The position numbers and the translations under genes were made by a program. This document shows, in pieces, positions 46,844 through 51,196 of a stretch of DNA of 64,000 nt. The notes beneath the pieces are model-generated. The model ran no database searches and had not been told where the DNA came from. It was given only the letters and a program-made list of their open reading frames with translations. The DNA is taken from positions 1 to 64,000 of the forward strand of contig NZ_JACHIS010000001.1 of NCBI RefSeq assembly GCF_014203365.1, given 5' to 3'. The DNA is from Actinoalloteichus hymeniacidonis. Its GTDB lineage: Bacteria > Actinomycetota > Actinomycetes > Mycobacteriales > Pseudonocardiaceae. How positions within the stretch are numbered: the first letter of the stretch is position 1; each line of letters starts with the position of its first letter.

Positions 46844-47459
46844 GCAGCGCACGGGACTCGCGATCGTCTGTGTCGTGGTGGGCGTATTGGCCGGTTGTTC
46901 GAGCCAGGACAGCGGGTCGGCAGGCCCGACTGCAGGACCGGACACGGCGGGCGGCGATCAGACCGCCCAGCCGGAGGTCGCGCCGACGGATTCGGCGGTG
47001 ATCGAACCTGTTTCGAGGCCACAGGACATCGATGTCGCGGGGGTCGATTCGTGCACCCTGCTCACCGAGGAGCAACTGGCCGAGCTCGGCGCGTCGGATC
47101 CGCCGAGGGCCACGGACTTCGCCGAGGGCTACGACGACGGCTGTACCTATGGTGACTTTCTCGGGGACCCCGCGTTCAGCTATGTCCTCGGGACCGGATC
47201 CTCGTTGGAGTTCGATCGCTTCCAGGATTCGCCGAACTCCGAGGTACGGGCCATCGAGGTGCTCGGCTACCCGGCCTCGCAGCGCCAGTTGATCGGGGCC
47301 GAGGCGAATTGCATCGTCGATGTGAGCCCGTCAGAAGGACAAACCCTCTCGGTGCAGTACATGGACGACAGCTTCGAGGAGGGTGCCGAGGTCGTGTGCT
47401 CGAAGGCGGCCGACGCGGCGGGCCTGGCATTGGAGACGCTGCGCGCAGCAGGCAGTTGA
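46836..47459 (+). CDS. DUF3558 lipoprotein
   Basis: A 207-residue lipoprotein with signal peptide IVCVVVGVLAGC giving lipid-anchored Cys21, a Ser/Gly/Thr-rich linker, and a DUF3558 domain beginning VDSCTLLTEEQLAELG with a second cysteine in DDGCTYGDF. DUF3558 lipoproteins are common in Pseudonocardiales and often accompany EspG and PE/PPE-like genes, as here. It faces the outside of the membrane. Its start overlaps the previous gene. Confidence 0.88.
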   Translation: MTEQRTGLAIVCVVVGVLAGCSSQDSGSAGPTAGPDTAGGDQTAQPEVAPTDSAVIEPVSRPQDIDVAGVDSCTLLTEEQLAELGASDPPRATDFAEGYDDGCTYGDFLGDPAFSYVLGTGSSLEFDRFQDSPNSEVRAIEVLGYPASQRQLIGAEANCIVDVSPSEGQTLSVQYMDDSFEEGAEVVCSKAADAAGLALETLRAAGS

Positions 47460-47468
47460 GCACCGTAC

Positions 47469-47486
47469 GCGGCCGTTATCGGCCGC
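47469..47486. terminator. Hairpin between DUF3558 and SdpI genes
   Basis: 7-bp stem (47469-47475 with 47480-47486, loop TTAT) just past the DUF3558 stop, between convergent genes. Confidence 0.55.
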
Positions 47487-47544
47487 TATGCGCCGACGGT
47501 CACCGCGTCGGCGGGGGCGTCGGCGGAGATGCGTGCGGCGCCGA

Positions 47545-48018
47545 TCAGGCGATGCCGCAGACGTTGCTGCCGCAGCACTGGCCCGCGCAGCCGATCTTGC
47601 GGGCAGGCTTGTCCGGAACCAGGGCCGCAGCGCGGGTGCCCAGCACGCCACCGGCCGCGACCAGCCCGAAGACGCCCAGCACTCCGATGGCCAGCGCGAC
47701 CCACTGCGCCGGTCCGGAGAGGCCGAGTAGCGCGACGGCGGTGAGGATGCCGATCACTCCGGAGACCATCGTCGGCAGGCCAGCAGCGCGGTTTCCCACC
47801 CGGAACGCCTCGTCACTGCGCAGCGTCGCGGGGGTGCGCACGCCTGCGAATCGATTTCTCGGCAGCTTCTCCTGCAGCCCACGCCAGCCGATGACCGCCA
47901 GCGCCGCGCCGACAAGGATTAGCACGACCGACACGGCCACGACGATCGGAAGCGGCACTGTGCCCGCCTCGGCCGTCGCTGCCTGCACGAACCCCTGACT
48001 GGACTCCGCATTCGTCAC
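47545..48018 (-). CDS. SdpI-like membrane protein with Cys-rich tail
   Basis: A 157-residue integral membrane protein with about three helices (22-43, 85-103, 105-127) and the SdpI-family segment LPRNRFAGVRTPATLRSDEAF followed by NRAAG. SdpI in Bacillus is the immunity protein and signal transducer for the SdpC toxin; in actinobacteria the family is widespread without known toxin. The tail KIGCAGQCCGSNVCGIA has four cysteines within 14 residues, which is unusual and could bind metal or form disulfides. GTG start at 48018. Confidence 0.82.
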   Translation of the reverse strand: MTNAESSQGFVQAATAEAGTVPLPIVVAVSVVLILVGAALAVIGWRGLQEKLPRNRFAGVRTPATLRSDEAFRVGNRAAGLPTMVSGVIGILTAVALLGLSGPAQWVALAIGVLGVFGLVAAGGVLGTRAAALVPDKPARKIGCAGQCCGSNVCGIA

Positions 48019-48139
48019 CCCAGCAGGGTAGGCGCCGGTCGATGACGGCCGCCGTTCACCCTATCGGTGCGGTGACCGTGGTCACGGCGGCGCGCTGCCT
48101 CGGCGCGGCAGCGGCCGTAGGCCCGGGGGCGGCTCCCGG

Positions 48140-48145
48140 TATGCT
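48140..48145 (+). promoter_or_regulatory. Candidate -10 element for the leuS leader
   Basis: TATGCT ends six bases before the leader-peptide ATG at 48152, the spacing expected for a leaderless transcript. No good -35 is visible. Confidence 0.4.
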
Positions 48146-48151
48146 TGGGGT

Positions 48152-48181
48152 ATGAGCACGGGTCGCCTGCTCCTTAGTTAG
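48152..48181 (+). CDS. leuS leader peptide
   Basis: A nine-codon reading frame, MSTGRLLLS then TAG, with three consecutive Leu codons (CTG, CTC, CTT at 48167-48175) directly ahead of mutually exclusive hairpins and leuS. This is the layout of a ribosome-mediated attenuator sensing charged tRNA-Leu. Attenuators for leuS have been predicted in some Streptomyces. There is no strong ribosome binding site; the leader may be translated from a leaderless mRNA. Confidence 0.75.
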   Translation: MSTGRLLLS

Positions 48182-48247
48182 CCGTGTTGACCGGCTAGGC
48201 CGAGTCGACGCGGCAGCCCCTCTCGTCCATCAGGGCGGAGGGGTTTC
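48179..48247 (+). promoter_or_regulatory. leuS transcription attenuator
   Basis: Three alternative pairings are visible. TAGCCG (48179-48184, containing the leader stop codon) pairs with CGGCTA (48192-48197). GGCT and CCG (48193-48196, 48200-48202) can instead pair with CGG and AGCC (48211-48213, 48215-48218). The terminator pairs 48215-48222 with 48238-48245 and 48224-48228 with 48233-48237 (loop ATCA), ending TTT. Stalling at the Leu codons would block the first pair and favour the second, which consumes the terminator's left arm and lets leuS be transcribed. Confidence 0.7.
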
Positions 48248-48304
48248 GTCTTGTTCGGGGCGCACACGTAGCTGCCGAGGCGACCAAGAGGAAGGAACGG
48301 ACCC

Positions 48305-51196
48305 ATGGGTGAGGGCAATCCCCATCCCGTCACGCAGGACGAGACCCCGCCGTTCCGCTACACAGCGGAACTGGCCGCGCAGGTCGAGAGCCGGTGGCGG
48401 ACGCACTGGGAACAGCATGGCACCTTCCACGCGCCGAATCCGGCGGGCGCGTTGGCCGAGGACGCCCTGCCATCGGACAAGCTGTTCGTGCAGGACATGT
48501 TCCCCTATCCCTCCGGCGCGGGGCTGCATGTCGGCCACCCGCTCGGTTTCATCAGCACCGACGTCTTCGCTCGTTTCCATCGGATGCTCGGCCGCAACGT
48601 GCTGCACACGATGGGCTTCGACTCCTTCGGGCTGCCCGCCGAGCAATACGCGGTCCAGACGGGTCAGCACCCCAGAATCACGACCGAACAGAACATCGAG
48701 CGCTACCTGGAGCAGATCCGTCGCCTGGGGCTCGGGCACGACGAGCGTCGGCGGGTCGCGACGACCGACGTCGAGTTCTACCGCTGGACTCAGTGGATCT
48801 TCCTGCGTGTCTTCAACTCCTGGTACGACCCCAAGGCACGCGACGGGCAGGGCGGCGCCCGGCCGATCGAGGAGCTGATCGAGCAGTTCGCCTCCGGTGA
48901 GCGGGCCACCCCCGACGGCTCGCCGTGGGCGGAACTGGACACCGCCCAGCAGCGCGCGGTGATCAACGACTACCGGCTGGTGTACCGGTCGGAGGCCCCG
49001 GTGAACTGGTGTCCAGGACTGGGCACCGTGTTGGCCAACGAGGAGGTCACCGCCGACGGTCGCAGCGAGCGGGGGAACTTCCCGGTCTTCCGACGCAATC
49101 TGCGTCAGTGGATGATGCGGATCACCGCCTACGCCGACCGGTTGATCGACGATCTGGACCGGCTGGACTGGCCGGACAAGATGAAGACGATGCAGCGCAA
49201 CTGGATCGGTCGCTCGCACGGTGCGCGGGTTCGGTTCCCCGCCTCGGTGGCCGATGGGTCCGAGGAGAGCATCGAGGTCTTCACCACGCGGCCGGACACC
49301 CTGTTCGGCGCGACCTACATGGTCTTGGCGCCGGAACACCCGCTGGTGGACGTGCTGAGCACCAGGGTGTGGGGCCAGGATATCGACCCGCGCTGGACGG
49401 GTGGCGCGGAGAGCCCTGCCGAGGCGGTCACCGATTACCGGGCCAAGACGGCGCGGAAGTCGGAGTTGGATCGGCAGGAGAACAAGGACAAGACCGGTGT
49501 CTTCATCGGGGCCTATGCCACCAACCCGGTCAACGGCGAGCAGATTCCGGTGTTCATCGCCGACTACGTGCTGATGGGCTACGGCACCGGCGCGATCATG
49601 GCGGTCCCCGGCCAGGACCAGCGGGACTGGGACTTCGCGACCGCGTTCGGGCTGCCGATCATTCGCACCGTGCAACCGCCCGAGGGCTTCGACGGCGAGG
49701 CGTACGCGGGCGACGGGCCCGCGATCAATTCGTCCAGCCTGTTCTCGGTGAACCTGGATGGCACCGACATCGCCGAGGCGAAGAAGACCATCATCGACTG
49801 GCTGGAGTCCAACGGCTGGGGCGAGGGCACGATCCAGTACAAGCTGCGCGATTGGCTGTTCTCGCGGCAGCGGTACTGGGGCGAGCCGTTCCCGATCGTC
49901 TACGACTCCGACGATCAGCCGATCGCGCTGCCCGCCGATCAGCTGCCGGTCGAGCTGCCGGAGGTCGACGACTACTCGCCGAAGACCTTCGATCCGGAGG
50001 ACGCCGAAAGCGAGCCGTTCGCGCCGTTGGGTCGGGCGGAGGAGTGGCTGACGGTCGAGTTGGATCTGGGCGACGGACTCAAGACCTACCGTCGAGACAC
50101 CAACACGATGCCGCAGTGGGCCGGTTCCTGCTGGTACCAGCTGCGCTACATCGACCCGAAGAACGACGAGGCCTTCGTCGATCCGGAGAACGAGCGCTAT
50201 TGGATGGGGCCGAGGCCCGAGATCCATGGCGAGTCGGACCCGGGTGGCCTGGACCTGTACGTCGGCGGCGTCGAGCACGGCGTGCTGCACCTGCTGTACA
50301 GCCGGTTCTGGCAGAAGGTCCTGTTCGACCTGGGCGAGGTCTCGGCGGTCGAGCCGTATCGGAAGCTGTTCAACCAGGGCTACATCCAGGCGTTCGCCTA
50401 CACCGACTCGCGAGGGATGTACGTCCCCGCCGCCGAGGTCGAGGAGCGGGACGGCAAGTTCTTCTGGAATGACGAAGAGGTCACCCAGCAGTACGGCAAG
50501 ATGGGTAAGAGCCTGAAGAACTCGGTCTCTCCCGACGAGCTGTGCGACGAGTACGGCGCGGACACCCTGCGGCTGTACGAGATGTCGATGGGGCCGATGG
50601 ACGTCTCGCGGCCCTGGGCGACCAAGGACGTCGTCGGCGCGCATCGCTTCCTGCAGCGGTTGTGGCGTAACGCGGTGGACGAGACCACCGGCGAGGCTCG
50701 CATCAGCGAGGACGCTCCCGGCGAGGAGACGCTGAAGCTGCTGAACCGGACCATCGCGGGCGCGCACGAGGACTTCGCCGCCTACCGGTTCAACACGGCG
50801 GCAGCGAAGCTGATCGAGCTGAACAACCACCTGACCAAGACCTACTCGGCCGAGGCGGGCACGCCGCGCTCGGTGATCGAGCCGCTGATTCAGCTGTTGG
50901 CGCCGTTGTGCCCGCACATCGCCGAGGAGCTGTGGTCGAAGCTGGGCCACGGCGAGTCGTTGGCACATGGCCCCTTCCCGGTGGCCGATGAGAAGTACCT
51001 GGTCGACGACACGCTGGAGTACCCGATCCAGGTCAACGGCAAGGTGCGGTCGCGGATCACGGTCGCGGCCGACGCGGCCAAGGACGTCGTGCAGGCGGCC
51101 GCCTTGGCCGAGGAGAAGATCGTCGCCGCGCTGGAGGGGCGAGAGCCGAAGAAGGTGATCGTCGTTCCCGGGAAACTGGTGAACGTCGTGCTCTGA
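48305..51196 (+). CDS. leuS: Leucyl-tRNA synthetase
   Basis: A 963-residue class I synthetase that charges tRNA-Leu. The HIGH-type motif is in [15 protein letters not shown] and the following [13 protein letters not shown]. The CP1 editing domain includes [20 protein letters not shown] and the later [20 protein letters not shown]. The KMSKS loop reads [10 protein letters not shown]. The C-terminal anticodon-binding region runs from about residue 800. Length is normal for high-GC actinobacteria. ATG 48305 follows AGGAAGG. The attenuator upstream suggests control by leucine charging. Corresponds to Rv0041. Confidence 0.98.

Follow-up and report, generated by a model that had tools for sequence, protein, structure and literature searches.

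Might a nine-codon reading frame just upstream of leuS in Actinoalloteichus hymeniacidonis decide whether transcription reaches this leucyl-tRNA synthetase gene, and might its translation begin at the very first base of the mRNA, as a first-pass annotation of the locus had proposed? Classical attenuators of the trp, his and leu operons are built of control codons, a 1:2 hairpin and a 3:4 terminator. For leuS, as the first-pass annotation correctly stated, attenuators were predicted in Streptomyces coelicolor and S. avermitilis in 2005 (accessible part of PMC1262725, where ilvB leaders of actinobacteria are also covered), and leuL2 (MRAVRLLLSEPR), found before leuS of S. lividans TK24, was reported to be leaderless in a 5'-end study of 2021 (accessible part of PMC8079986); the leuS attenuator of the window (i.e., of the whole 64,000-nt stretch of DNA analyzed) is of a kind already known from Streptomyces. 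Our main reading, to which we would assign a probability of roughly 0.8, is that leuS is preceded by a leaderless attenuator through which ribosomes govern its transcription, and leuS is very likely switched on by leucine shortage.

The leuS leader and its hairpins in the window

All of the features concerned lie on the forward strand. A -10 box, TATGCT (48140-48145), is read directly 6 nt upstream of the leader ATG, which is the predicted transcription start and opens the frame MSTGRLLLS plus TAG (48152-48181; ATG AGC ACG GGT CGC CTG CTC CTT AGT TAG), a frame resting on both the sequence and its comparison with relatives. The three Leu control codons CTG CTC CTT at 48167-48175, which had been pointed out before, are confirmed by direct reading, the last of them, CTT, being a near-invariant rare codon. 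Directly read as well are the leader stop TAG (48179-48181) and, further on in frame, TGA (48188-48190), the stop at which 12-codon relatives end. Hairpin H1, the 1:2 hairpin (48181-48214; left arm 48181-48195, right arm 48199-48214), is supported by folding and compensatory changes, and so the hairpin that had been proposed stands, but its left arm does not hold the leader stop codon as had been stated: in the fold obtained, only the last G of TAG falls inside H1, and TGA is wholly inside its left arm. The strong 3:4 terminator of the first-pass annotation was likewise recovered as a bulged stem-loop at 48215-48245, by folding and by covariation in relatives, with a U-rich tail, UUUCGUCUUGUU, read at 48244-48255, and leuS follows at 48305-51196 (TIGR00396, 878.6 bits against a cut-off of 548.4). 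Two features of an attenuator are present, namely a short ORF with Leu codons and, between it and leuS, a terminator backed by fold and covariation.

When 48153-48258 (106 nt) is folded, H1 directly adjoins the terminator, both being present in the minimum-energy structure, and the fold has a stability z of -5.3, none of 200 shuffled sequences being as stable. A simple consensus scan returned no sigma-70 promoter and no terminator, the latter, in our reading, because the stem is bulged and the tail imperfect; no -35 box is recognizable by eye, and no T-box or other Rfam element was matched at E<=1 within 47000-49000. Just 3' of the terminator tail lies a G-rich stretch (48254-48262 in the window), which in many relatives often reads TCAGGGGC.

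According to the accessible part of PMC8079986, leuL2 of S. lividans is a leaderless leader of the M...RLLLS.PR-stop type before leuS, with a hairpin and a run of U downstream of it, much like the arrangement in the window. The window leader shares with it the RLLL frame before leuS and the -10 box at leaderless spacing, and differs in ending after nine codons and in having a longer, bulged terminator stem (CCCCUCUCGUCC...GGGCGGAGGGG), compared with CCCCUC-CUGYGY-GAGGGG at loci encoding the leuL2 peptide (loci other than the S. lividans DNA itself).

Recurrence in relatives, the start and the control codons

LeuS was searched for in three genomes of the genus, 120 of the family (115 with a match) and 148 of the class (69 with a match), the closest named homologs being those of Saccharopolyspora, Lentzea, Saccharomonospora and Actinokineospora (best segment 77-79%, among the best 80 of at least 594 stretches), which suggests a member of the Pseudonocardiaceae. 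The regions upstream of leuS were read at 210 loci: 70 from the family (30 taken automatically and 40 picked for genus spread), 60 from the class and 80 named ones. A first scan, demanding LL and a -10-like box, picked 60/70 family (one of the picks, L039, being wrong) and 31/60 class regions. The anchor scan, by comparison, looked for a pair of Leu codons, a further one to three codons, CCG[CT][AG], GCGG and CCC...GGG and included neither promoter nor start, which is why the -10 spacing test presented below is not circular; it anchored leaders at 117 of the 210 loci (59/70 family, 30/60 class and 28/80 named), leaving 93 regions without one, and, five leaders being duplicated between the named and the other sets, 112 of these are unique. 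A second finder, which allowed other H1 sequences while requiring H1 to pair (its pair table is, hence, no proof of pairing), found 56/70, 30/60 and 36/80, respectively, with TAnnnT in every one, and added leaders such as MAGVFLLLTGPC of Micromonospora, bringing the union of both to 59 family, 32 class and 42 named loci.

Neither of these two finders placed a leader in the upstream stretches searched at the Rhodococcus, Nocardia, Gordonia, Dietzia, Williamsia, Corynebacterium and Mycobacterium gordonae loci, and the promoter-demanding scan found none in the regions of families f2 (0/10), f14 (0/5), f17 (0/8) and f24 (0/2). All leader counts are lower bounds, as R1, the leader covariance model treated below, matched in one region (L104, genome G188) that the scans had missed. 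The commonest form within the family is [MV]ST[AG]RLLLxxPR and a stop, and the leaders of family f18 (L084, L088 and others) are MRAVRLLLSEPR, the very peptide of S. lividans leuL2. Judged by sequence comparison, the recurrence of this arrangement before leuS of relatives is beyond chance.

In 117/117 anchored leaders, the frame has a start codon that is preceded by a TAnnnT ending 5-8 nt before it, as compared to 61/3736 (1.6%) of the remaining start triplets in these regions, the spacer being 6 nt in 65, 7 nt in 47 and 8 nt in five of them. The proposal of a leaderless leader peptide with Leu control codons that targets leuS is backed by both the sequence and the relatives, and in A. hymeniacidonis itself the first base of the mRNA is probably also the first base of the leader frame. 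Calling such an architecture "unusual", as had been done, is not borne out, since leaders of this build turn up across the class and S. lividans has been reported to have a leaderless one before leuS (accessible part of PMC8079986).

The Leu codons, whose loss in relatives had been named as grounds for dropping the proposal, turned out to be conserved: the last one is CTT in 112/117 anchored leaders and CTC in the remaining five, and the penultimate one is CTC in 79, CTT in 23 and CTG in 15. CTC and CTT would both be read by one tRNA, that with the GAG anticodon. Within the coding sequences CTT is scarce, accounting for none of the 76 Leu codons of the window's leuS and for one of 574 in the leuS N-termini of named loci with a leader. 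The distance from the last Leu codon to the conserved CCG is 6 nt in 113/117 leaders (3, 6 or 9 nt having been permitted by the anchor). With the ribosome edge modeled 12-14 nt past the first base of the A-site codon in 57 family leaders, about 10 pairs of H1 are kept when the ribosome is at the first or second Leu codon, and only six (edge 12) or two (edge 14) when it is at the last; as, among the three Leu codons, only the last has H1 open, the modeling points to the last Leu codon as the likely switch, i.e., the sensor.

The nine-codon leader had been called minimal. The leaders of both congeners read MSTGRLLLSTPR: where they have AGT ACG CCG CGT TGA, the window has AGT TAG CCG TGT TGA. Leaders of nine codons or fewer make up 14 of the 112 unique ones, and stops at codon 10 are found in other genera as well. 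The nine-codon leader thus looks like a derived variant, and the most economical reading of these sequences would be that a 12-codon leader was shortened more than once while H1 was retained.

Covarying hairpins, the candidate antiterminator and competing explanations

In alignment A1 (58 leaders, 57 of them distinct, from 60 picks after L039, a wrong MVFLL... pick, and L026 had been dropped), 95.1% of the H1 and terminator cells are paired and 11 pairs changed on both sides, against 4.3 (sd 1.2) in shuffles, none of 500 reaching this, a fairer count than the pair table of the second finder, although the structure had been drawn from the same alignment (both points apply to A2, below, as well). 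In relatives, the codons CCG CGC TGA (Pro-Arg-stop) form the left arm of H1, which accounts for the conserved PR ending of the leader peptide, and left-arm CAC and CAT are matched by right-arm GTG and ATG (L041, L059). By column mutual information, H1 and terminator pairs come right after a top pair, 5-126, that belongs to neither helix and is taken as kinship noise. The terminator 5' arm CCCCTCAYGCC (A1 columns 93-103, with a bulged Y) is more conserved in sequence than its pairing with the 3' arm would require, and a second partner, e.g., the right arm of H1, may be the explanation. Two other helices were tried and rejected: 5'-terminal RUGAG with terminator CUCAY, which came up in a column scan, is 88.6% paired versus 88.7% in shuffles, and Leu codons with the terminator 3' arm have a duplex energy of -10.8 for own and -11.1 for cross combinations.

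An antiterminator of the 2:3 kind is the part of the model where the evidence is mixed. In f18- and f19-type leaders, the H1 right arm and the terminator loop (GCGCGG with CUGYGC) line up as a neat helix, with an unbroken 6-bp pairing in the former, and the register of this helix can be followed into the window as 48207-48213 with 48221-48227, overlapping both H1 and the terminator, so that the alternative pairing of the first-pass annotation does exist on paper with one mismatch, but is weak in the window and carries no energy signal. Within A1, the 2:3 helix is 90.9% paired versus at most 68.4% when slid, four cells changed on both sides versus 0.9 (sd 0.9) in shuffles (5/500), and an A83-U102 change seen in the window's genus and L059 fits it; sliding the register by +2, however, gives more cells changed on both sides (eight) and a score as high. 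The duplex energy over 89 leaders (of which two or more were mis-parsed) is -8.19 for own combinations, versus -8.00 when permuted over all (42/300 as low), -8.09 when permuted within the family (76/300) and -8.48 with shuffled loop letters (175/200), and among the 14 leaders with A at the third 2:3 position of the right arm (a GCACGG arm), 12 have this pair disrupted.

When the ribosome was modeled at the last Leu codon, the number of 2:3 pairs rose from 0.07 to 1.4 (edge 12) or 2.4 (edge 14) in the 57 family leaders, with 3.4 and 6.5 pairs in the nine leaders of f18 and about 0.2 in the window; at the modeled stop position the window has 3.2 and the family a mean of 2.8, meaning that a ribosome resting there would also open H1 and that the scheme needs quick release. 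Equilibrium folding of the window gave no strong classical antiterminator. The expectation that alternative stems would be conserved in relatives is, thus, borne out for H1 and the terminator, which covary, and only weakly and ambiguously for 2:3, which we regard as the weak, unproven part of the model. Compared with the classical trp, his and leu attenuators, the window has a leader without a Shine-Dalgarno sequence and a 2:3 helix that is only a candidate.

Around what was documented above (the element, its conservation, the -10 spacing, the rare codon, its fixed spacing to the hairpin and the covariation of H1 and the terminator), the mechanism might run as follows. RNA polymerase would start at or beside A48152, and a 70S ribosome would initiate on the 5'-terminal AUG. 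With ample leucyl-tRNA, it would clear CUG CUC CUU, terminate and depart, release at the stop being presumably quick; with the ribosome gone, H1 would form and the terminator would then halt transcription. If the CUU-reading tRNA is uncharged, the ribosome would stall on the last Leu codon, where its front edge would meet the base of H1, open it and free its right arm, which, in what is the most conjectural step of all, would pair with the terminator 5' arm and loop and let leuS be transcribed. Leaderless polycysteine attenuators of mycobacteria, reportedly described by Canestrari in 2020, are alike in having a leaderless short frame rich in codons of the amino acid sensed. They differ in sensing cysteine and in being described, in the accessible part of PMC13236596, as translation attenuation.

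How the opening of H1 is conveyed could be imagined differently. That it acts without any 2:3 helix, via adjacent or stacked hairpins, polymerase pausing or ribosome-polymerase coupling, is possible, if rather unlikely: H1 does abut the terminator, both covary and the support for 2:3 is only mixed, yet H1 and the terminator coexist in the minimum-energy fold, so that opening H1 alone would be without obvious effect, and the f18-type leaders do offer an unbroken 6-bp pairing of right arm and loop. Control at the level of translation, with the leuS ribosome-binding region of readthrough RNA masked by base-pairing to the Leu codons until a stalled ribosome uncovers it, would resemble the LEU element of actinobacterial leuA, which also has a Leu-run leader and in which pairing of the Leu codons with the Shine-Dalgarno sequence is described (accessible part of PMC1262725), and CUGCUCCU is able to pair with the G-rich stretch past the terminator in many relatives. 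The leuS leaders, which have a terminator, lend it little support: over 53 leaders, the energy of Leu codons with the downstream G-rich stretch is -15.3 for own, -14.7 for cross and -14.1 for shuffled combinations, a small difference, and the conserved terminator would be left unexplained, which makes this control improbable.

Whether the frame is leaderless, or a leader at all, may be questioned too. The failure of the scan to find a sigma-70 consensus promoter and of the eye to find a -35 box would suit a transcript beginning further upstream, with the short frame an ordinary leadered uORF or untranslated, but such an origin is very improbable given a TAnnnT-start spacing fixed at 6-8 nt in all 117 anchored leaders and a leaderless leader in S. 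lividans (accessible part of PMC8079986). A nine-codon frame alone would be weak evidence of anything, and a chance frame beside a plain terminator could have been suspected; this idea is refuted by conservation (the covariation, the spacing in 117/117, CTT in 112/117 and the 6-nt ruler in 113/117) and its probability is practically negligible. A leaderless transcription attenuator thus stays our preferred reading, and the leuS leader represents a widely shared, testable design (no Shine-Dalgarno sequence, a hairpin to which one rare codon keeps a constant distance, and a terminator), and a natural system in which to study how leaderless initiation can keep up with RNA polymerase.

Related leaders upstream of cimA, ilvB, leuA and an ilvA-like gene

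When run on its own genome at E<=1, R1, whose alignment includes the window leader, reported one match, the leuS leader (as expected, it being in the model), and neither the ilvB nor the cimA leader of that genome. At E<=0.01 it matched in 89/148 class genomes, the own one included, many having two matches and not all of these being before leuS. The downstream genes of the 20 sites read, as called by eye, were ilvB (seven), cimA (seven), leuA (two), ilvA-like (two) and leuS (two). One protein of each kind was scanned: citramalate synthase, acetolactate synthase, 2-isopropylmalate synthase and leucine-tRNA ligase pass the curated cut-off, the threonine ammonia-lyase call (L232) is below it, and the seven cimA sites adjoin citramalate synthase matches. 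TAnnnT stands at leaderless spacing in only four of the 20 sites (L219, L221, L223 and L224), leaderlessness of the other 16 being putative, in some cases on the strength of weaker boxes; Rfam gave no match to the leaders at seven loci scanned. One of the two leuS sites (L219) has a leader, VTAYRLLLPEPR and a stop, before a divergent leuS in a genome (G151) that is not among the matches listed for the LeuS query.

The leader of cimA is VTHRGMIIIA and a stop in the own genome, with CATCAT 6 nt before its GTG, and is followed by H1 and a terminator (L235, 1315-1413; C1, 186 nt upstream of the cimA match at 995259). An Ile-run frame with a terminator was found at 30/30 family cimA loci (the best 30 of 56 matches in 60 genomes) and 21/29 class ones (the best of 120 genomes with a match), and in none of the 210 leuS regions. 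In these 51 leaders, nAnnnT lies 5-8 nt before the start in 49, against 81/899, the -10-like box being mostly CAnnnT and never TAnnnT. Alignment A2 holds 43 of the 51 (L270, which had a wrong start, and seven VLSFA-type leaders were dropped), and in it 94.4% pairing is seen for H1 and the terminator, the cells that changed on both sides numbering 46 versus 12.3 (sd 2.6) in shuffles and further pair types not raised (22 versus 22.6). From the last Ile codon to the GCGC of H1 there are 5 nt in 38/51 and 8 nt in 8/51 leaders, and this codon is ATT in 30/51, ATT making up six of 185 Ile codons in cimA. These sequences point to an isoleucine attenuator of citramalate synthase, which is apparently undescribed, as no description of it was found among the papers listed from the literature searched (coverage of which left out most subscription journals).

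We lean mildly towards the view that one ruler-like family of leaderless attenuators runs much of the actinobacterial branched-chain supply (leuS, leuA, ilvB, cimA and ilvA), the cimA leader being an undescribed member. In each member, transcription would start on the start codon, a rare control codon would be followed some 5 nt later by the base of H1, and a terminator would adjoin this hairpin; through the spacing, the last control codon would become the sensor. The interest of the locus lies in this rare-codon ruler and the related cimA leader, rather than in an "unusual" architecture.

The same design is also seen in the own genome before acetolactate synthase, with the leader VLRLTDILVLPWRADV and a stop, TACCGT 7 nt before its GTG (L234; C1, 215 nt upstream of the ilvB match at 980966). 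In family f17, where the promoter-demanding scan had picked up no leuS leader in eight of eight regions, VPLFLMVIT (L225) and VPQHLMVIT (L232), each with a stop and an adjoining hairpin and terminator, precede a threonine ammonia-lyase-like gene. Before leuA-type genes, leaders of the same design read MKHLLLIESARH (L221) and MTNLLLT (L222), each with a stop, and the protein encoded downstream of the latter passes the NCBIfam 2-isopropylmalate synthase cut-off.
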